Positions 78 through 60,233 of a stretch of DNA of 64,000 bases are shown here, one piece after another. A program made the translations under genes and the position numbers. A model generated the notes under the pieces. The model was not told the DNA's origin. It was given only the letters and a program-made list of their open reading frames with translations, and searched no databases. Within the stretch, counting starts at the first letter, position 1. Each line of letters opens with the position of its first letter. The DNA is taken from the NCBI RefSeq assembly GCF_020085105.1, contig NC_058063.1, forward strand, positions 15,671,262-15,735,261, read 5' to 3'. Source of the stretch: Siniperca chuatsi. Taxonomy: Eukaryota; Chordata; Actinopteri; Centrarchiformes; Sinipercidae.

Positions 78-165
78 GTACTTCTCCTGTGTGCACTGAC
101 GTAAAGGCAAGCTACTGTAACAAAGAGTTTCCCTACGGGGATCAATAAGGTATTTCTGATTCTGA
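78..165 (+). repeat. LINE-type 3' tail
   Basis: The text contains a run reading roughly 'tttccctacggggatcaat' followed by 'aaggtatttctgattctga'. This resembles the conserved 3' terminus of several fish non-LTR retrotransposons, which end in a short tandem of 'attctg'. No coding part of the element is visible upstream within the window. The assignment rests on recognition of the tail only, so the family is not named. Confidence 0.5.
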
Positions 166-1670
166 AAAACAACACATTGTGGTGTTGTAGGGGGTTATGA
201 GCTGGACTATTTATTGGCTGGATGTGAGAATGGTATCAATGTTCTCAGCTAAATGGCAGCAAGAAAACAAATTGAGATATTTCCCTAAATGTCAAACAGC
301 TGCTTCAGTTTGTTGGACAAAGTGAAGTAGCAGCAGGAAACTGCTGTGAGACAGAAGCCACAGAAAGTGAAACGAGTATTTGTAGGATCCTTCTGTGATT
401 TCACTTCCTGTATATCTCTCACCAACCTCCTTCACACAGCCTCGTAAAGTTCCTCTTGCAGTCACACAAACAGGATGTGAGGATCTTTGAATATCTCGCC
501 TCCCAGCTGAGCGTGTTCTTTGTTTTCTGTTGCCATGGCCCATTTGTAGTGATAGGCGAAAATGAACGAACAAATCTTTTTGAATGACTCTTTTTAGTGT
601 CCGGTACGTGCCGGGTCAGTCAGTCGAACATCTGACTGCTCACGAGTCCTCGACTTTCCCCACTCGCCGTGATCGTAGGGTCGTGCTCACGCTGCCTGCA
701 GTGAATGAATGAGAAGCGATTGAATTGGACTTGGAATTGGAGTCCAGACAGCCTGGCAGCTACACTTACTGAACAAGACCAATGAACCGCTCTCTCGTGG
801 GATGTCGGCTGCTGCTTGCCCAGGAAGAACGACAAATCAAAGCAGTCAAATCACATTTCTGTAACATCTGTTGGGCTTACATAGACTACCTACATACAAG
901 CACAGGCTTGTTACTTAGAAAATGTAATATTGTCTTGGTTAAAAGCACGACACCAAGTTCAGCAACAGTACTGAATGCAGGAGCGAGGACCGATTAAATC
1001 GGACTCCGGTCGATCGACCTTCAGGCTCCGTCGCTAGCCGAGCCAACAGGCCAATGGTGCATTCACATGCTCCTCGGATGATCGTTCTTCCAACTTCAGT
1101 GTGTTCATGAGCTTTAAGTTGTAATGTGGAAACAACACAGAGGCTACAAACAAGATGTGTTGTATTTTATTGCTCAGTGCGTTTAAACAACACGTTGAGC
1201 AAAGGAAACGGATCAGGTGAGCCATGAAATATGATCAGCAAATAATTTTCCAGATTGTTCCAACACCAGATGAATGCAGCAGCAGCACAGGCTGTGGAGG
1301 TAACTGGGATGTCTGATAGTTGCCGGTGTGGCTCAAAGAACAACTGATCGTTGGTCAGTGGCATTTCCGTAACATCTTATTGAGCTTACATATAAACTAG
1401 CCTACCTACATACAAGTGGGATGTTGAATTAATGAATATTTTATCTTTATTAATGTGAACTTATACATGATGACTGGTGACATGTGTCAGGAGAAGCTGA
1501 TGCCACATTTTGCAAAAAGTATCAAAACCCGAAAGGTTTGAAAGATTCGATACATTTACATGTATCAACTTGAAGAAACAGATACTGTGAAAAGAATCGG
1601 TCCGCCCATCACTACCCATTTGACAATCTGTCTGTTGTGTGAAGATAAAACGATTTTCTTTTCCCCACAG
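166..1670. other. 5' flank of shootin gene, no gene seen; contains a diverged direct repeat
   Basis: No reading frame here looks coding. A diverged direct repeat is present: 854-900 and 1362-1416 both read as 'gtaacatct', then 'gcttacata', then 'ctacctacatacaag'. This suggests two remnants of one dispersed element. A short CpG-richer patch lies at about 985-1035. The first exon(s) of the shootin gene should lie here or upstream of the window, but I could not recognise them. Confidence 0.4.
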
Positions 1671-12774: not shown

Positions 12775-14213
12775 CCAGGACAGATATTTGAGATATCTGT
12801 TGACATATAGAGCAATGATTAGATCAGTTGTTGATTATGGATGCATGGCTTCTGGATCAGCAGCTCCTATAGTGATAAAAAACTGGATATAGTACAAGCT
12901 AAAGCCCTGAGAATATGTAGTGGGGCATTTCACACTAATCTAATACCTGCCCTGTTGATAAATAGGGAGAGATGCCCTTGGAAATTAGGCGATGTAAACT
13001 TGGATTGATATACTTAATGAAAATTAAAGGACATGGTGAAACATTTCCAACAAAATGCCTGCGAGATCAAAACTAGGAATTCCTGGGAAGAGCGAGGAAG
13101 GTCAAAACTAACTTTGGAAATAAGCTCAAATCTAAAGATGAGGAAATTGGTATTATTAATATTAATATGTGCCCTCCAGTCTGTTGGTTTGTTGTAGCAT
13201 CATGGCTAATCCCAGAACCTGAAGTTGATCTACCCATACTGAATAATAAGAGAAAGAAATCAGGGGATATAGTGAAGGAAGTTAAGACCCATTTGCAACA
13301 AGAATGGAGATCAGATTTACAGATTTTTACAGATGGATCAAAGGATCCAGATTCCATTCCTGAATTAAGAATTAAAAAGGTACATGTCAATATTCACAAC
13401 AGAGATGCTGGCAATATTATGGGCACTTTGGTAGACAATAAACCAGATAACTCAGTCATATGTAGTGATTCAGCAGCAGCTTTAACTACAATAAGAGACA
13501 TCAAATCCAAGTCCAGACCTGATATACTGACAGAGATTTATCAAACATTATACAGAATTCAAAGCAGGATGTGAGGTGGGTTTTATATAGGTACCAGGCC
13601 AGCACACGTGGGTATAGAGGGAAACGAGGAAGCAAATTACTTGGCAAAGAATGCTGCTCATGAGGATAGAGTAGAAATTGCCCTACAATACGGACTGTCA
13701 GGACACACTAACAAGTCAGTAAAAGAAATGTGGCAGAATACATGAGAAGAAGAAAAGAAGGGGAGTTCTTATTTTACATTACAGAACAGAAAACAGTGGA
13801 AAAAGCAATTATGCCTACAAAAGGAAAGATTCAGCTGCCATAGCCTGGTTGAGGCTTGTGCATTGTGGGCTTAGGAGTGGGCAGGCTCTGATTGGGAAGC
13901 CACTGGATGGCAAATGTGAGTGTGGAGGCTCAGAGACAGTAAGACACATCCTCATCCAGTGCAAGAATTACTCACTTCAAAGGAGGAAGAGCTGTTCAAA
14001 GACCTATAGGAGCAGCTGGAGAAACTGTGTTTACTCGGCACACTTTACTCAACCTGGACAACTGAACTAAAATGAAGAAACTGATGGAATATCTGTACAG
14101 TATTGGAAAATAAGAAATATAGATAACTGTCAAAAGGAACATTAATAGCAAACAACAGAGCCATTGTAGCGTCTAGTCTACCTAATCAAAAGAAGAAGAA
14201 GAGGAAGAAAAGA
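12775..14213 (+). mobile_element. Decayed 3' part of an RNase H-bearing LINE (I/Nimb-like)
   Basis: The three frames together give the end of a reverse transcriptase (IRSVVDYGC near 12822-12848; then AKALRIC and GAFHT-like text), a ribonuclease H domain (IFTDGSKD at about 13322, SDSAAALTTIRDIKSKS at about 13466-13516, PAHVGIEGNEEANYLAKNAA at about 13591-13650), and a C-terminal Cys/His knuckle (CECGGSETVRHILIQC at about 13917-13965). Reading-frame breaks and stops separate these parts, so it is dead. The 3' end is a simple (AGA)-rich tail at about 14190-14213. RNase H after the RT is typical of the I superfamily. The 5' half is absent. Confidence 0.85.
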
Positions 14214-14428: not shown

Positions 14429-19993
<5,565 letters not shown>

Positions 19994-22110: not shown

Positions 22111-25032
22111 TCAGTAGTGTCTGGGCTCTAGCACCTCAACCAGGTGCATGGCCACCTCTGTCCAGGGGGAGGTGCTCTGCCCCTGGGGGTATCCTCGGCG
22201 CTGGACCTCCACGATGTTCTGTGGCTTAAAGTACAGAGGGGACGCGATCCTGGAAGGGAAGGCTCTGGGGAACAACACCCTCTTGAGGACATCCAGAGGC
22301 AGGTCAGGGGCGGGGCGAGGCGTAGTGTCCCACTTGGTGATGTACTGAGGCTGCCTGCTGCTGCTGTCCCTCCACACTGTTATGCTGTTCCGGAGGTCCG
22401 GCTCTCTGGGGGGCTTCTCTGGCTGGAGGCCCATGAAGATGGTCCAGGGCCTGGAGGATGAGGCTGGGGGTTGCTTGGTGGAGGTGCATTTGTCCTCCTG
22501 AGGGCCTCCTGGCTGGTGCTTCAACAGGTGCTTAGCATGTTTTGTGTTTTGATCTGATGAGAGGCACTGCGTGTGGTACTGGCTCATCAGGACTCTTGGG
22601 GAGAAATCTTTTAGGAGGGGCAAGCCTTTCTTTTTTGCCCACTCTGCCATCTTCACATCAATAAGTGTCTAAAATTGGACATGAAAAAAGTGATTAGTTT
22701 CTTTCTTTCTTTTATGTTAGAAATATGCTGCAAATGTCATAACATGACAGGAGAACGAAAAATACTGACTGAGCTTGAACTGACATTGAATGTTTTTATC
22801 TTAAACTTATTAGGGATGTGTCAAGATTAATATTCTTACTACCTGAAACATTTAATCTGAACATTGATCACATTGTTCAAGAATACATTTTATATTTTAT
22901 TAAGTAACATTTCATTCAGCTGTGTGTTTTCTTATACAAAAAACAGTGTTTTGATATGTAAATGTTTCTCTGATTCTGTCACAGTTTGGGGGTAATTTAT
23001 GCGTTACCCCATAAATGTTGGAAGAATGGGTTTCCACAACATACAAACTAACCTTTTTCTTGAGATCATTCAGCTTGGCCATGTCCACAAGATCACTGTA
23101 TAAAGCTTGAACTAGCTTCCTCTCGTGCATTTCTTTCTCCTTTTCTTTCTGCCACATGCAGCTTTTCAGATACCTACACAAAAACACAAGAAGTCTGTCA
23201 ATTTTAACTGAAACAGTTTGACTGAACTTTCCTTTCTGGTGTGAGTTGTTCTTTTAGCTCTTTACCTTGCTACTTTTCTGTGGCAACAGATGCGGGCCAA
23301 ATCCAAAGGAGTGTGTCCCATGCTGTCCTTGGCCAACACATCTGCTCCGGCCTGCACGAGGATCTCTGTGCAGTCCAGGAGGCCTTCAGAGGCGGCCAGG
23401 TGCAGCAGGGTCGACCCCGAATCTGTGCCACTGGTAATAACAGTAAAAATTATGTAAAAAATCTTCTCAGCTTCATTATCATTAACTACAGTGCCATCGC
23501 CATTACTTTTGTCATCATAATCATCATCATTACCATCATTATCCCATGCAGCAGCAGCAGCTATAAACTTTCACCATCATCTCATTGTAATTATAATTTT
23601 ACTTATGCTTATTATGCTTTCTATTCTGAGCTTCTCTTTTAAAACGCTTTACTTTGGATTGCGCTGGATCCAGCTGACAGAATTTATAAACTAATAAGGC
23701 CCTTACACGTTGATGTCGGCCCCGTGCTCCAGCAGGTATCTGAGGCACGAGGTAGTGTTGGGGGAGCTCCTGGAGGACAGGACCATGTGAGCAGGCCTGC
23801 GACCCTGGTTGTCGCTGCTGTTGATCCACCCCGGCCTGGACTCCGCCAGGAGCTGAACAGTAGCCAGCTGGCCGTAAAGGCAGGCCATGTGGAGCGCTGA
23901 CAGACCCTGGAGGACGAAACACAAAGACAAGCACAAAGTGTACTCCCCAATGTTGTTTTCTACTAGAAATTAGCCCGCTTTTATAACCTGTCCTGCAACC
24001 TACAAGACCTGAGCTCATACTGAGTCCAACAGCTACAGTTATGTATGCTTTCTCACTGGCGTGGCTTACTGGGACACTTACATGTTATTTCTTACACCCT
24101 TGTGATTCTTGCTATGACAAGTCACATGTGCCATGAAAGGTGCACATGTGGAAGTTCAGTACATTTAGTAATGTGCTGTTCAAGTAAATCTTTAAGGTAC
24201 TGGCAATTGTGAAAGTGTGTGGTTTTAATGAAACAGTAAAATCCCATTTACGCCTACAGAATACTTCACTAATCACATCAAGGTACCCTTCTTCTCAGTT
24301 AGTACATCTAAGACTTTTTTACTCAAATTCTGAATGCTTACTTTTTATATTTATGTGGTGGTAGGCCCTAGTTGTTCTTAAGTAATTGGTTGGAGTGGGC
24401 TACTGTCTTCCATCACTACCCTATCCCTTCTGCACTGTACTCTTTGTGCCACAGGAGTGGACAAACAACATACAGTGTATCTTTCACCATACTGTAATGT
24501 AAATGCGCCTACCTGTCTGTTCACACTGACATCCAGCTTCTCTTGGCTCCCAACAGCAACAGCTGGAAACATTTGCCCGTCTGGGGGAGCTCTGTAGGCA
24601 AGTTTCCTGCAAAAATGAAGGCATATAGAAACTGTTGTAAATGCTAGGCTATAAATACTATAAGGCACAATAAAGATTTAAGCTAACTTGACCCAATTTT
24701 TTTTTTTATTACGAAGCATTATCATTATTTTTAGGAAAGATTATTTAGCCTATAGCCACGTTAGTCACAACGGAACAACTTTTGTGAACGGTGATTTTCG
24801 GCGAGTGAATAGTCATGTAACGTTCAAAATGGCCCATATAACAAACTAAAGCGCTCAAAGCAGCTAGCTTGACTAATGTATAAACATTTAGATTTAGCTA
24901 GGCTACATGCACAGAAAAATAACGTATGAGCTAAAATACTCAACGTATTTATTTATTTATTTATTTTTACCAATTTTTACATCTCCCACGTCTTTGTTTT
25001 CCGGATTTGTTGACAGGTTCCATGGTTGCCAT
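22111..25032 (-). CDS. ankrd53: ANKRD53, ankyrin-repeat protein
   Basis: Six exons on the minus strand: 25032-24971, 24606-24513, 23906-23707, 23430-23266, 23173-23053, 22668-22111. They total 1,200 nt with every phase matching, giving 399 aa. The start ATG at 25030-25032 begins MATMEPVNKSGKQRRGR. Residues 53-160 hold ankyrin repeats with the usual signatures: GLSALHMACLYGQLATVQLL, a degenerate second repeat ending LEHGADINV, GSTLLHLAASEGLLDCTEIL, then GHTPLDLARICC. The C-terminal 180 residues are basic and proline-rich, without a known domain (SPRVLMSQY, RPWTIFMGLQPEKPP). Mammalian ANKRD53 acts with PSRC1/DDA3 in spindle dynamics and is about 530 aa, so this copy is shorter. Gene order and convergent orientation with TEX261 agree with human 2p13 as I recall. 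An X-box overlaps the start codon. Confidence 0.92.
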
Positions 25033-52171: not shown

Positions 52172-52177
52172 TTTATT
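52172..52177 (-). terminator. Poly(A) signal of the giant GIMAP-like gene
   Basis: On the minus strand AATAAA lies 57 bases after the stop codon, implying a very short 3' UTR that ends at or in the neighbouring MITE. Confidence 0.6.
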
Positions 52178-52233: not shown

Positions 52234-55200
52234 CTACATCAGAAACTGCTCTCTGCTGTTCAGATCCACTATATCCTTCATCTTCTCAAATAATCCCTCA
52301 ATCATAGAGTTGCTTTTCTTGCTGTTCACTACATGATACCTGCCCCCACATCTCTCTATGAGCCCCATTAGCTCCCCGTTCCTTAGGATGTGCTGCTCTG
52401 CACTCTCCCCTAAACTCTCCCCCCATGTGAACAGCACCAGTGTGCGTTGCCAAATTTCTTCCCCGAGCAAACCCATGTGCTCCTCTACTGCTCTCCTGTA
52501 CTTCTGTGTGCAGGTCAAGAAGGCCGGCATGAGCAGGAGGACGACGTGAGGTCCTGGGTGACACCAGGAGATACTGTCAAGAATGCTTTTCCTTTGCATG
52601 GTGTTGGTTGGATCTGGTCCGTCTCGCCACCTTAGACCTAGCGGTTCTACGACGGCAAGGCGTTGTCCGGCTATCTGACCTCTCCAAGACCTGAAGGTAG
52701 AGCCCTCGAGTTTGGATGCCTCTCCACACAGGATGGTGACTCCAGCTGGGGAGCGAGATGACCAGGACTCCCCTAACACCACCACCCTCAAATCTGACTC
52801 AGGAGACTGTTTGTTGTTTGAGCTTCTGTGATCCTGACTCCGCCCTGCTCCTGCTCTCACCCCTTCCTTTTCCTCAGCCATCTCTATCTCTTTTAGTGTT
52901 TCAAGGTGACAGTTATTGCTCTCTGCAGCTGACGATGCTGTTTTCATCCTCTGATCCTCCCTATCCTTTGCATTTTCTCCTCTATCTGACTCTCTTCCTC
53001 TTCCCTTTTCCCTTCTTTCACTGACTTCTCGGTACATTAAATTCAAGTCGTCTTCTGAGCACTCAACTGCAGGTGTCAGATCGAAAGAATCTTCCTCATG
53101 GACTCTCATATTGTCATCACCCTCATATTGTCCACTCTCTAAATCTCTTTTTTGCAACCCCTCCTCCCGTTCTTTAAGATTTTGTTCCCATTTGCTCAAT
53201 TTCTTAAATGACACCTTTAAAATTTTCTCTTTGTTGTGAAGTTCTTCCTTCAGCAAAGCCAAGCCTCTCCCCATTTCATCTAACTCCTGCGTTGTAGAGT
53301 TGACTTGCTCATTTCGCATCTGCAACTCTGACTTCCAGTTGAGCAACTCCTGCTCTTCATTTCTTAAGTAATACTCCCTATCTTTCAGCTCTTTCCCTTG
53401 ATCTTTCAGCCCTTTTACCTTTGTCTGAAGATCTTGACCGTGACAGTTTAGCTCTTTCTGTTTGCCTTCCAGAGCTCTAAGCAAGCTTTCTAGCTCCCTT
53501 TCCTTTTTCTTGATAGTTTGCACTCTCATGCTCACATCATGCTCGTATTTATCTCCTTGCTCTTTTTGTTGTTTTTCTAGACTTGCTTCCCATTCACTAA
53601 GTTCTTGTTCCTTACTTTCTAACTTCACCTCTTTTTCAACAAGCTCGTCCTCTTTTGCATCAAGTTCATGTCCTCTTTTACTCAGCTCTTCTTCATTTCT
53701 AATCAGAACCTGTTCCCTTTCCCTTACTTCTTTTTCCCTTTTCAAGAATTCCTCTTCAATCTCCTCATTCTTCATTCTGAACTCACTTTGTTTCTCCTTC
53801 AGCTGTTTCTGTAAATGCTCTCTCATTTCATTCATATGCCTTTCTGCCTCACCTTCTCTCTCTTTCATCCTTTCCATCTCTACTTGCTGTTTGTCATTTG
53901 CCTCCTTTAATACCCTGACTTCCACATCTCTCTCTTTCAGAATGCTTTGGATTTCTGCCTCTGTGCTCTTTACAAGCTGGTCATATCCACTGAGATGTTT
54001 TCTAACTTCTTCTTCACTCTCCTTCTTCAGCTCCTCACACTTTATTTTGAGATTGTCCGTCTCTTTTCTCATCTTCTCGTTCTGCTCCTGCAGCTCTTCA
54101 ACTCTCCTCCGACTTTCCTCATATTTCTCTGTGACGTCCTTAATGCTTTGCCAATTCTCTTCCTCCAAACGACTTATAGCACAATCCTTCTCCTTTGCAA
54201 TGGCTTCTGTGTTCTCGTTACTTCTCGCAATCTCCTTTTCATATTCCTGAATCATGCTTGTCATCTCCTTTTCCATCTTGTTGGTGAGCTCCTTCAGCTC
54301 GGACTTTGTTTGCTCAATTGTTTGCCTCAGTTGGATGATCTCATTCTCGTTTTCTCTGTCTCTCTGCCTCAGTTGGTCGAGTTCTTCTTCTTTCTCCTGA
54401 AGTTTTTCCATCATTTCAGCATCTTTTTTCTTTTCCTGCTCTGTGTGACGCTGCTGTATCTCGATCATGCTAGAGTTTTGGTTTTTACTGCTTTCTTTCA
54501 GCTCTTCAATTTCTTCTAAGTACTTTGCACATGTCTTTTTTGCCTCATCAATCTCACTGTCTCTCTCTGCAAGAAGACATTGTGCTTGTGTTATTTCTTG
54601 AGTTTTCTTGTTAATGATTTCTATCAGTCGGTTCATCTCGTCTTCTCCTTTCTCGTCCTTCTTCCTCTGCTCTTCCCTCCATCTCGTCTCCCTGGAGTCG
54701 GCCTGTTGTTTAAGACTTTCAATCTCACTTTCCTTTTCTTTTAGTTTTCTCTCTGTGTTATTTAAAAGCTGCAGTTTCATCTCCTCCATCTCTCGTTCTC
54801 TGTCTTGCAGTCGTTGCTCTGCCTCTCTCTTTTGATTTAGAATAATTTCGCCCCTCTCTTCTTCTTTTCTTTGCAGGATTTCGTCAATATCCTTTATATG
54901 CTGATTCAGGTTTTCTATCATTCTTTGTTTTTCTTCTAGTTTTTGCTCCATCTGTCTCTTGTGATTTAAATGATCACTTTCTCTTTCCTCTTCAGTTTCC
55001 CGCAGTTGTCGCTCAAGTTCTTTTAAATGTTCTTTCATCACTTCTATTTCTCTTTCTCTTTCCTCCAGTCTTTGCTCCATGTCTTTCTTGTGATTTAAAT
55101 GATAATTTTCTTTCTCTGCCTTTTGTTGCAGCTTTTCCTTTACATGTTTGACATTTAATTTCATCTCCTCAATTTCTTTTTCTTTTTCTTTCAGTTGTTG

Positions 55201-57767
55201 CTCCATTTCTTTCTTGTCCTTTAAATGATCATTTTCTTTCTCTTCCTTTTGTTGCAGCTTTTCCTTCAGTCCTTTGACATTCAGTTTTATTTCCTCTACC
55301 TCTTTTTGTTTTTCCTCCAGTCTTTGCTCCATCTCTTTCTTGAGATTAATAACAAGCTTTTCTTTTTCCTTGTCACTTTCTTGCATTATTTCTTTGATTT
55401 CGTTGATGTGTTGATGTTTTAACTCCTCTATTAATCTGTCTCTCTCTTGCATTTTTTGCAAAATATATTTTTCATGATTTTCATTCATCAGTTCCTTCTC
55501 TCTTTCATTTCCTAGCACCTTTTCTTTTACTTGGGCGGCATACTTTTGCTCTACCTCTCTTATCTCTCTTTGTCTTTCCTGCAATTGTTTCTCATTTTGT
55601 TCTGTAAACTGTTGTGTCAGCTCTTTAATCTCTCTTTGTCTTTCTTGCTCTATGTCCCTTATTTTATCACTGCACTGTTGTTGGACCCTTTCCACATCTT
55701 CCTCCTTTTCTTTCACTTTTCTATCTATTTCCTCCTGGTGTGCAGCTCCCCTTGCCTCCAGTAGTTTTTCCATTTCATTCATTTTTCTTGCCATTTCTTC
55801 CTGATGCTGCTGTTTTAACACTTCTACCTCTTTTTTATTCTCTTGCATAATTTGTGCCATGTCTTTTTTGTGATTTAGCTGAATCATTTCCTTCTCTTTT
55901 TCATTTTCTTGCATTTTTCCTTCTATTTGGATGAGATACTTTTCTTCTAATTCTGCTATCTCTCTCTTTTTTGCTCGCATTTGTTCCTCTGTTTCTTTTT
56001 CAAACTGCACTTTCAGCTCTGCAATCTCTCTTTGTTTTTCTTGCTGTATGTCCCGTATATCATTGTCATGCTGTTGTTTGACCCTTTTGATATCTTCTGC
56101 ATTGTCTTTCAAGTTCTGATCAATTTTTTCTTGGTGTTGAACTTTCATTATCTCCATAACTTTTTCTATTTCACTGATTTTTGTGGCCATCTTGTCCTGA
56201 TGCTGCAGTTTTATGTTGTGTATCTCAGTCTCTTTCTCATTCATTTTTCTCTCCATCTCTTTCATATGTTGTGATTTTATTTCTTCAACTTTCTTCTCCA
56301 TATGTTTTTCATATTGTTTTGCGTTATCGAGAGTTATCTGCTTTTCCTCTGAGGCTTTTTTTTTCAGTTCTACTAGTTCTTTGTCTTTTTCAAGCAGTTT
56401 AATTTCCATCTCTTTCTTTAGTTTTTCCTCCATTTCTGCCATCTCCCTGTTTTTTTCTTGTACTTTTCTCTCGAGAACATTATCATAGTGTCTTTTTGTC
56501 TCATCCATTTCTGTTTTTAAATAATCAACTTTTTCCATCCACTCTGCTTTCTCTTTCTTTTCCAGCTTTATGCTTTCTTCCAGTGTCTTTACTTCACTCA
56601 TCCACTCTTGTTTCTTCACTTTAATGGTATCCTCCCTCTGTTTTCTCTCATGTTCATTTTCTACACTGGCACGTTCAAGGTCAAGCAGCTTCAGTTGCTG
56701 TTCATCAGTTCTTTCTTTTAGCTCCTCAATCTCTCTCTCTTTTAGCTCCAGGCTGAGCATTGCGTCGTCCCTTTCTTTTCTACTCTGGTTTAGTGCTGAG
56801 CGGATTCTCTCTTTTTCTACGTTCAGATCCTGAATTTCTCTCTCTTTATCCTCTGTCAGCCATCGCATCCTCTCCTCTAGCTCTCCAATGTCATTCTTCC
56901 TTTCTCCAATCCTCCTGTCCTCATCCCCCTCTTCTTCCCTTTGAACGTCGGCCTTTCCGGGTGATTTCACCTTTTTCTTCCTGTCAAAGAACCACCTGAT
57001 GCTTTTCATCTCCCTCTCTCTCATATTTTTCAACTCTGCCTCCTGACGAAGCATTTTATCTCCCATCTCCTTCAGGCGCTGGTTGAACTTCTCGTTCCTT
57101 TGCCGGCTCAGATCCCTGACATCGTGGACCAGGCTGGAGAAAGCCTCACACCTGTTCATTGCAGCCATCTTTTCCACCTTCTGCAGGAGCTCTGTCACCT
57201 TGCTGGAGCCTCCATCTACGCTGCTAATGACATGGTACCTGCCCCTGCACTTCTCCAGCAGCCACTGGAGGTCCCTGCCCCCACCCTGGATGTGCTGCTC
57301 AATATCCACCCCCTCTCGAAGCTGATCCCCATGGGTGAACAGCAATATCGTGTGTCTCCATACACCCTCGCCCAGAAGCTCCAGATGTTCCCTCACATGT
57401 CCTGCCCTCACCAGTGTATCCACCCTCAGAGTCAGCAGAAGTGCATGGGGCCCTGGCGGACACAAGGCCACACTATTGACAATCTCCCTCTTCACCCTCT
57501 CTGGTGTGGCACCCGCTACGCCTCCCTCCCAGCCTGGAGTGTCCACCACCGTCACGAGCCGCATGGCCACCTCCGCTTGCTGACGGATGCACTCCTCTGT
57601 TACTGCCCCGGCCTCAAAGAAGCCCATTTTGCCCAGGACCGTGTTCCCGGCTGAACTCTTTCCTGTTTCACGCTCGCCCAGGAGAACTAGCCTGACCTCA
57701 GGTAAACGCCGGGGAGCCTTGGAGAACGACTGGTGGGCGTCTAGCTCGGAACCCTGAAGACCATCGC
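52234..57767 (-). CDS. Giant GIMAP-like protein: AIG1 GTPase - long coiled coil - AIG1-like pseudo-GTPase
   Basis: One uninterrupted exon of 5,534 nt, entered by a phase-1 acceptor (ctcccttccag, 57768-57778), encodes 1,843 residues plus a split codon. Exon numbering: residues 24-230 are an AIG1/GIMAP GTPase domain with P-loop GERETGKS (31-38), switch/G3 VVDTPGWE (74-81), the family box LCPPGPHALLL, and G4 LFTHGD (143-148). Residues about 235-1590 are almost pure charged heptads (Glu/Lys/Arg/Gln), containing tandem repeats. The last 186 residues (1659-1844) align with an AIG1 domain again, but with GESWSSRS for the P-loop and VVEPLG for G3, so it should not hydrolyse GTP. There is no C-terminal membrane segment. 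The first ATG inside the exon (57627) lies after the P-loop, so translation must begin in an upstream exon, which I could not find. Automatic annotation may call this trichohyalin-, golgin- or myosin-like. GIMAPs are membrane-scaffold GTPases of lymphocytes; the role of this form is unknown. Confidence 0.85.
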
Positions 57768-58079
57768 CTGGAAGGGAGAAAGGTAAACGTATTTTGTAAT
57801 CAGTGTGTGCTAATACAAAGTTAAGCTCTTACAGAATGAAGAAAGCTGATGTTATAACTGCATGAATCCATTTTTAGACACACTGCCACCACTAGCTCGT
57901 TGGCTTAATAAGTTGTTATTGCTAATGTGTTAACAAACAAGTTACCTACACACTTCCACTAGGGACAGGGGTGTCCCCGCCGCTTTTTTTAATCCAGCGA
58001 AGCCGTGGTAGCTCTCCAGCATCTGATATTCTACTGTTGTCTAACACCCCGCTTGATTGTGCCAAAAAATCTAAACAAG

Positions 58080-58296
58080 CTGACATAAAAAGGGTTTCAG
58101 TCGTAGTCATCTGGACACTGTTTTCAGAATCAAGACGTTTCGGCTCCCATCCGGAAGTCATTCTCAATTGTTCTTCCGGATGAGAGCCGAAACATCTTGA
58201 TTCTGAAAACAGTGTCCAGATGACTACGACTGAAACCCTTTCTACGATAGAACACTCCTGGACGAATGAGGGACTACACCGTCCTGACATAAAAAG
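58080..58296 (+). mobile_element. Fold-back element with 13-bp flanking direct repeats
   Basis: Identical CTGACATAAAAAG copies (58080-58092 and 58284-58296) flank a 191-bp insert. Within it, arms 58089-58157 and 58173-58241 are reverse complements over 69 bases with only two mismatches, separated by a 15-base spacer, so the RNA or single strand would form a long hairpin. The part after the right arm (to 58283) matches the element at 42991-43063 in the opposite orientation. No coding capacity. Confidence 0.8.
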
Positions 58297-58734: not shown

Positions 58735-58979
58735 TACACATCCAGCATACACAGTGCATTATTAGCATTCATTTGGAGTTGTGTTCACTTAATGAATGTA
58801 AGTCCAATATTCACTCTCCTTTTAGCTCTGTTTTGGTCTCCACCAACTCCTGAAGGAAATATCTGGGTCTTTAGCTGTTAAATGCTCCACTGTGTTCATC
58901 AGCTAGTTGCTAACTTTGCCTGTCTGTTGTTTGGTGCTGGACAGGTAGTGTACAGTGGATTTATCAGAGTATTTTTTGA
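58735..58979 (+). repeat. Dispersed repeat family C, copy 2
   Basis: Begins 'acacatccagcatacacagt' and continues through 'ctctgttttggtctccacca', 'ggaaatatctgggtcttta', 'ggacaggtagtgtacagtgg' to 'atttatcagagtattttttg'. I recognise this as a known fish repeat. Its end overlaps the last codons and stop of the short GIMAP gene, which lies on the other strand. Confidence 0.65.
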
Positions 58980-60036
58980 GTGCATCTGGAAATTACACTG
59001 AGAGCAGTAAGAGAGGACAAAAACAGTAAAGTTAAACCAAAAAAGGTAAAAGACCCTAAACGCTTTTCATCGAGCAGACTGAAGGACTCACTCATTAGAG
59101 CAGCTTTGATGGTCCCTCTCTGCATCTGTGCCTCCATCTCCCTCTGTTTCTTCCTCCTCTCCCTCGCTCTCCTCTTCCCGTCTGCTTCCAGACCCAACAG
59201 AACTGTGTTGTCCATCTCTAAATGACTGCTTCCATCCTTCTTCCCCTCCACCATCTCCTCCACCTTCCTTATCAGCTCTATAACCTGGTTCCCGTCTCCT
59301 TTGCTCCGGTTATCCACGACATGGTATCTGTTCCCACACTTTTGGAGGAGTCTCTGGAATGCTGGGCCGCTCGTCAGGATTCTTTGCTCCATGGACACCA
59401 GGCCTAGTTCGTCTCCCCTGGTGAACAGCAACATGGTATGCTCCCAAACTCCTTTTCCCAGCAGCTCCAGGTGCTCCTCTATCTCTCTGATGTAGTCCTC
59501 TGTTACTGAGGCGCAGGCTCGCATGACCAGAAGCACAGCGTGGGGTCCAGAAGGACAAAGCGACACACTCCGTAAAGTTTCTCTCCTCACCCAGTTGGGG
59601 GTGCTGTTGAGCGGGTAGTACCACTCCCACCCTGGAGTGTCCACCACCGTGACTTTTCTCCCTGCCACATCCGCTCGCCTTTTCACACACTCCTCCGTGG
59701 GCTTCCCGCTCTCGAACCCTCCTACTCCTCCCAGGATGGTGTTGCCTGCTGCACTCTTCCCTGCTCCTTTCCTGCCTAGGAGGACCAGCCTAAGCTCTGG
59801 TAGAGCAGGAGGGACGCTGTGGGAAGCAGGAGGGTGTTGTGAGTCCATGGCGACCTGCAGACTCTCATCTGTGAAGAAAGGGAGAAGTACTTCCTCAGTG
59901 CACCGTACCGGATAAGCTGAATGATACAAAACACAGAAGTGTGACAGTAATCAGTCATCTAGTCTTTGTATTATACTTAAAACCACACTTGAAACCTTGT
60001 TTTACCTCGAGAACCGTAATTAGATTGTTTACTTGC

Positions 60037-60089
<53 letters not shown>

Positions 60090-60233
60090 TCACTTCAGTT
60101 TCACAGTAAGGTGCCTCCATACAAGCTTATTTCACATTTATAATACTTGAGTAAACAAAGAATGAAAGAGCGCTACAATAAACTTACCACCGTTCACAAC
60201 GATGACTGGACTACAGTTCTTATCTGTGTCCAT
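58964..60233 (-). CDS. GIMAP-type GTPase with C-terminal membrane anchor
   Basis: Two exons on the minus strand, 60233-60188 and 59868-58964, joined in phase 1, give 316 aa. Start MDTDKNCSPVIVVNG. The AIG1 domain follows with P-loop GRKGAGKS (47-54), AAGNTILG, G3 VVDTPGWE, the family box LCPSGPHAVLLVM, G4 LFTRGDEL, and G5-region RYHVVDNRS. A basic helical stretch (RARERRKKQREMEAQ) leads to a hydrophobic segment (about 288-309, FTFFGLTLLFLSSLTALSV) that would anchor the protein in a membrane with the GTPase in the cytosol, as in several mammalian GIMAPs. GIMAPs govern lymphocyte survival and organelle traffic. The next gene downstream on the same strand, at 52.2-57.8 kb, shares exon phase and motifs, so this is a tandem pair. 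The last eight or so codons lie in a repeat. Exact orthology to a numbered GIMAP is not assignable. An in-frame second ATG is at residue 23. Confidence 0.92.
60040..60086. repeat. (TA)n microsatellite
   Basis: About 23 TA units in the only intron of the short GIMAP gene. Confidence 0.95.

Follow-up and report, generated by a model that had tools for sequence, protein, structure and literature searches.

We identified, on the minus strand of a 64,000-nucleotide window of the Siniperca chuatsi genome (contig NC_058063.1, positions 15,671,262 to 15,735,261; all coordinates below are window positions), an extreme member of the GIMAP (immune GTPase) family whose last coding segment is an unbroken exon of more than five kilobases. 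In the gene model that we favor, with a probability of roughly 0.6, this giant exon is the last of a single three-exon, GIMAP8-like gene, in which a start exon and an exon encoding a first AIG1 domain (D1) precede a second AIG1 domain (D2), a coiled coil of ~1,350 residues and a third AIG1 domain (D3), for a predicted product of ~2,118 residues and 250 kDa. The giant gene is real and intact, and it stretches a known family rather than representing a new kind of gene.

The giant exon is an open, coding-like frame

The giant exon (predicted exon 3, 52234..57767, minus strand) spans 5,534 nt, is open throughout, and comprises 1,843 codons following a split codon, encoding D2, the coil and D3 before ending at a stop. 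It lies within a stop-free frame of 1,864 codons (57828-52234, minus strand, from stop to stop), and a splice acceptor (cctttctcccttccag/GC) sets its first base at 57767. Both the open frame and this acceptor bear out the first-pass annotation of this DNA, which had described an unbroken minus-strand exon starting at that base. When the exon is modeled by its dinucleotides, the chance of encountering 1,843 open codons is ~10^-45, the true figure being less extreme as the repeats within the coil make the codons less independent. The remaining frames of the region contain 119 and 167 stops on the same strand and 42–59 on the opposite strand; the giant frame is plainly coding-like. A polyadenylation signal, AATAAA, follows its stop (52172..52177, minus strand).

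The exon has no in-frame ATG ahead of the P-loop and starts at an acceptor in phase 1, so that coding sequence must lie upstream. Hence, while the earlier description, in which a single exon combines two AIG1 domains with a very long coil, holds, this exon is not the whole gene.

Two AIG1 domains, one of them degenerate, flank the coil

A Pfam search with the entire giant frame detected AIG1 (PF04548, cut-off 27 bits) twice (7.8e-42). When the domains were cut out and scored alone, D2 (57121..57693, minus strand) matched PF04548 with an E-value of 3.4e-31 (108.7 bits) and D3 (52261..52791, minus strand) with an E-value of 9.3e-15 (55 bits). In the PDB, the best match for D2 was the solved human GIMAP2 (E 4.4e-18), while eight distinct human GIMAP sequences (of GIMAP2, GIMAP4, GIMAP5, GIMAP7 and GIMAP1) matched D3, the best with an E-value of 7.7e-11. 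The N-terminal AIG1 domain with an intact P-loop that had been read from the sequence is therefore confirmed by profile and by aligned motifs, and the C-terminal segment, previously called AIG1-like by eye, indeed scores as homologous to this family. NCBIfam returned no match for the giant frame and three weak GTPase matches, far under the cut-off, for D1, and a scan of a viral collection with D2 revealed no relative.

Alignments showed that the G1, G3 and G4 motifs (GxxxxGKS, DTPG and TxGD) are kept in D1 and D2, where D2 reads GERETGKS, DTPG and THGD, and lost in D3, where GESWSSRS (52750-52773) stands in place of the P-loop, EPLG in place of DTPG and TWGE in place of TxGD. As its nucleotide-binding motifs are replaced, D3 is probably a pseudo-GTPase that has lost GTP binding. 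The earlier proposal that the coil holds GTPase heads far apart would accordingly change to one in which the active heads share one end and a probably dead head occupies the other.

The coil is periodic but not uniformly heptad

The charged coiled-coil region between the two domains (53056..57120, minus strand; exon residues 216-1570) is about 1,350 residues long and contains 22% Glu, 15% Lys and 0.1% Pro. Its only two prolines are residues 269 and 1565, so that residues 270-1564 (53074-56958), 1,295 in all, are proline-free. Hydrophobic residues recur with a period of 3.4-3.75 more strongly than in shuffles (p≤0.05, uncorrected) in 20 of 22 overlapping segments, the exceptions starting at residues 280 and 1560. 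A single alpha helix throughout was considered and rejected, as hydrophobic pairs across the region are enriched at i+7 (z 5.2) and i+14 (z 5.5), a stripe that speaks for a coiled coil. Acid/base pairs are also more frequent than in shuffles (base to acid at i+3: 128 vs 81.5), and some stretches may therefore be single helices.

The first-pass annotation had described continuous charged heptads. A charged, periodic coil is indeed present, but the heptads are not uniform: 22-residue repeats give way to 42-residue repeats and then to heptads. In the first half of the coil, spacings of 22 residues (z 7.9) and multiples thereof prevail; a part with this two-hendecad spacing (55261..56496, minus strand) also contains a 132-residue duplication, and five segments covering residues 472 to 823 have a hendecad-like best period of 3.66-3.70. 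Tandem repeats of 42/43 residues make up residues ~786-1015 (54721..55410, minus strand), and heptads characterize the second half (z 4.7 at 7 and 6.7 at 14). These repeats are underlain by 126-bp and 396-bp tandem repeats in the DNA, whose copies have diverged (63-83% matches). No sequence in the PDB matched the coil at E≤0.001. An adjacent coiled coil is one of the marks by which PMC7053062 recognizes a GIMAP, and the window protein, with its periodic coil, bears this mark.

Upstream exons predict a third AIG1 domain

D1 (59225..59794, minus strand; Pfam 2.2e-34, 119.1 bits), with intact GRKGAGKS, DTPG and TRGD motifs, is located in the next frame upstream of the giant exon (58964-59950), which ends in a hydrophobic tail. 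The predicted exon 2 (59092..59868, minus strand) has a phase-1 acceptor and ends at a phase-1 GTGAGT. Further upstream, candidate exon 1 (MDTDKNCSPVIVVNG; 60188..60233, minus strand) combines a Kozak-like GTGATGG with a phase-1 donor, GTAAGT, which is the best of its phase in the region (splice-matrix score 5.9). Start-exon candidates of such quality (donor ≥5.8, phase 1, in-frame ATG) number four on the whole minus strand of the window. Joining 60233-60188, 59868-59092 and the giant exon maintains the frame and yields 2,118 residues and just one stop, at the very end. Consistent with this arrangement, three paralogue exons elsewhere in the genome (the first of L048 and the first and second of L049) are phase 1 at both ends, with a donor directly after the charged tail. 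Given this predicted splicing, D1 probably belongs to the same gene as the giant exon, which would thus encode three AIG1 domains.

A near-perfect palindrome (58086-58244), with two 72-nt arms that are 96% complementary and separated by 15 nt, lies in the intron predicted to separate D1 from the giant exon; it resembles a fold-back or miniature inverted-repeat transposable element-type insertion.

Relatives in the same genome have shorter tails

A search of the genome (718.8 Mb, 65 contigs) identified at least 109 AIG1 matches, three of them within the window. Outside themselves, both D2 and D3 match D1 best (49% and 38%, respectively). For a tree, 62 distinct domains from 52 loci were reduced to 57 by dropping those shorter than 120 residues. 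D1, D2 and D3 fall into one 14-row clade (97/93) together with loci on C7, C13, C19, C20 and C21, and D1 and D2 are sisters (99/92; 54% identity), while one-exon frames with three AIG1 domains on C5 fall outside this clade. The nearest paralogues are loci in which several AIG1 exons follow one another and the charged tails are short (~35-40 residues by eye). On a smaller scale, AIG1 combined with a charged coil is commonplace in the genome, with tails of up to about 345 residues (L003, L004, L005 and L017). Sequence resembling the giant coil was found nowhere else in the genome; among 336 candidates, 36 of them scored, the coil matched only itself.

The first AIG1 domains of three C5 three-domain frames (L012, L013 and L027) have degenerate P-loops strikingly like that of D3 (GNSWSQRSSVG in L012 and GNSWSERSSVG in L013 and L027, compared with GESWSSRSPAG). 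Assigning D3 to the C5 group by this likeness was rejected, as the tree places D3 elsewhere; the resemblance may reflect convergence, a suggestion that we make only weakly. A potential second giant, a 2,714-codon frame on C6 (L006 1-1500), was also discarded, being an ordinary AIG1 exon that runs into an assembly gap (a run of N). Two other frames were noted. At L049, a 253-codon frame with a coiled C-terminus (102-860, minus strand) lies downstream of three AIG1 exons and has only sub-threshold Pfam matches, and L022 is a 665-codon AIG1 frame whose long, Gly/Ala-rich hydrophobic tail is unlike the coil tails.

Alternatives to a single, functional gene

Several observations weigh against a single, functional three-domain gene. 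The D1 donor (TGA/GTGAGT) has a matrix score of only 1.0; candidate exon 1 can be spliced directly to the giant exon, skipping D1, and remain in frame (1,859 residues); and an ATTAAA is present at 57993, between D1 and the giant exon. Exon phases in the relatives are mixed, the top-scoring acceptor being phase 0 in two of three L050 exons and the top-scoring donor being phase 0 in L051, L052 and one L050 exon. The placement of D3 next to the final exons of the C20 and C13 loci is weak (86/87), and its branch is long. Finally, in three comparisons of coil repeats, changes at third codon positions did not significantly exceed those at positions 1 and 2 (p 0.19, 0.90 and 0.89). Selection on the coil had been considered from the NG86 values of its clearest repeats (0.44-0.52); as those segments were picked by identity, and the unbiased codon-position count was not significant, we do not rely on them.

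The main rival to one gene is that there are two neighboring genes, or that both isoforms are made: a single-domain GIMAP (D1) anchored in the membrane by its C-terminus, and a giant with two AIG1 domains that starts from a first exon of its own or from the 60.2-kb exon with D1 skipped. The weak D1 donor and the in-frame skip fit this arrangement, as does a hydrophobic stretch encoded where the D1 frame stays open beyond the donor (58967..59091, minus strand; best 19-residue mean 1.94), which represents either intron or an alternative C-terminal transmembrane tail; the accessible portion of PMC8201404 describes C-terminal transmembrane segments in some GIMAPs. However, the hydrophobic stretch begins exactly after a GTGAGT that is placed like the donors of the relatives, and it is T-rich, as are introns. 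Moreover, the sequence from the end of the D1 read-through to the giant exon contains no AATAAA, while one follows the giant stop, and no other good start exon in phase 1 appeared in the interval that separates the D1 exon from the giant exon. We therefore prefer one gene and consider two genes rather unlikely.

That the gene is decaying or unexpressed, its frame held open by chance in a purine-rich, recently expanded coil, we regard as improbable. The lost catalytic motifs of D3 and the internal repeats lacking a significant third-position excess would suit such a history, but the 119 and 167 stops in the other same-strand frames would not, nor would the motifs kept in D1 and D2. Between domains, the proportion of synonymous differences (pS, 0.64-0.77 in seven pairs, near saturation) exceeds that of nonsynonymous differences (pN, 0.33-0.45), which fits constraint. 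Degenerate heads also occur in relatives (the first exon of the C20 locus is without GK), so that motif loss is not in itself decay. With regard to the previous argument that conservation of the frame speaks for function, the openness of the frame in this one genome stands, while the coil repeats do not add to it. An assembly artefact, in which separate genes were fused or repeats inflated, is far less probable still: although the coil contains tandem repeats, and the 2,714-codon frame elsewhere in the genome was such an artefact, the window contains no N at all, and the repeats are too diverged to have been made by short-read collapse, with the frame kept across them.

Comparison with known systems

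Like GIMAP8, which has three GTPase domains (PMC4201521, accessible text), the window gene encodes several AIG1 domains that differ in their motifs, three if the favored gene model, with its predicted splicing, is right. Unlike GIMAP8, for which the accessible text of PMC4201521 does not contain the word 'coiled', it has a coil of ~1,350 residues between its second and third domains, and its domains form a clade separate from the C5 three-domain frames, which we assume to be stand-ins for GIMAP8. The accessible part of PMC7053062 describes AIG genes of Biomphalaria glabrata with coils to either side of AIG1; in five of the domain arrangements, two AIG1 domains stand apart from each other. This likeness in separated domains and coiled coils is found in a distant animal lineage, and in GIMAPs of 30-80 kDa (same source) as opposed to the 250 kDa predicted here. 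In the single-AIG1 GIMAPs of the same genome with coil tails (L003, L004, L005 and L017), a helical tail rich in Glu, Lys and Arg likewise comes after the AIG1 domain, although the frames seen contain no further AIG1 domain beyond it.

With septins, golgins and other coiled-coil GTPases or tethers, any likeness would be one of working only, namely GTPase heads combined with dimerizing coils. The giant frame encodes a coil, and at E≤0.01 AIG1 is its only Pfam family; a septin GTPase domain is not among its Pfam matches. GIMAP domains themselves have been termed septin- and dynamin-related (PMC8201404, accessible part). In the open-licence literature, covered mostly as titles and abstract openings, we found neither a GIMAP of such size, nor one with a coil between AIG1 domains, nor a long-range tether built from GIMAPs; public fish annotation may list the gene.

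Other features of the window

Minus-strand sequence at 23265-23570 encodes ankyrin repeats (Pfam Ank 8.9e-10) and may be ANKRD53-like. On the plus strand, frames at 13077-14070 resemble a non-long terminal repeat retrotransposon remnant (identified by eye from IFTDGSKDP-type RNase H text), and ARAGORN predicts a tRNA-Lys (ctt) at 19540-19612.

Proposed working and significance

We suggest that the tail following D2 grew by in-frame tandem duplication of 22- and 42-residue units, until it ran, intron-free, into the last AIG1 domain. Helices rise by 0.148 nm per residue, and the dimerized coil could thus extend as a rod for up to about 190 nm if its 1,295 proline-free residues form one helix. 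Since GIMAP2 dimerizes upon GTP binding, GIMAP7 promotes hydrolysis by GIMAP2, and scaffolds have been proposed (PMC8201404, accessible part), D1 and D2, with their intact GTP-binding motifs, are likely switchable, partner-seeking heads that would dimerize in the GTP-bound state with each other or with other GIMAPs, while the coil would serve as a dimeric rod, with D3 at its far end as a head for constitutive docking. The modeled 2,118-residue protein has no strong transmembrane segment (best mean 1.29, inside D2), and membranes would therefore be reached through anchored GIMAP partners. By this analogy, the most likely role of the protein would be that of a GTP-controlled tether or scaffold, which we consider reasonable. 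In its complete form, in which a single 250-kDa chain with two active AIG1 heads and one dead one at opposite ends of a ~190 nm rod, which arose inside one gene as a short tail was tandemly duplicated, acts as a GTP-switched, asymmetric, long-range tether, the proposal is tentative.

How GIMAPs work at membranes is described as unresolved in the accessible part of PMC8201404, where GTP-dependent dimer scaffolding is only proposed. If our proposal is true, a protein whose heads are fixed at the two termini of such a long rod would open the scaffold idea to direct testing, by microscopy and by in vitro tethering. It would also provide a clear case of a coil lengthening in situ within a gene, and of a pseudo-GTPase head being kept beside active ones.

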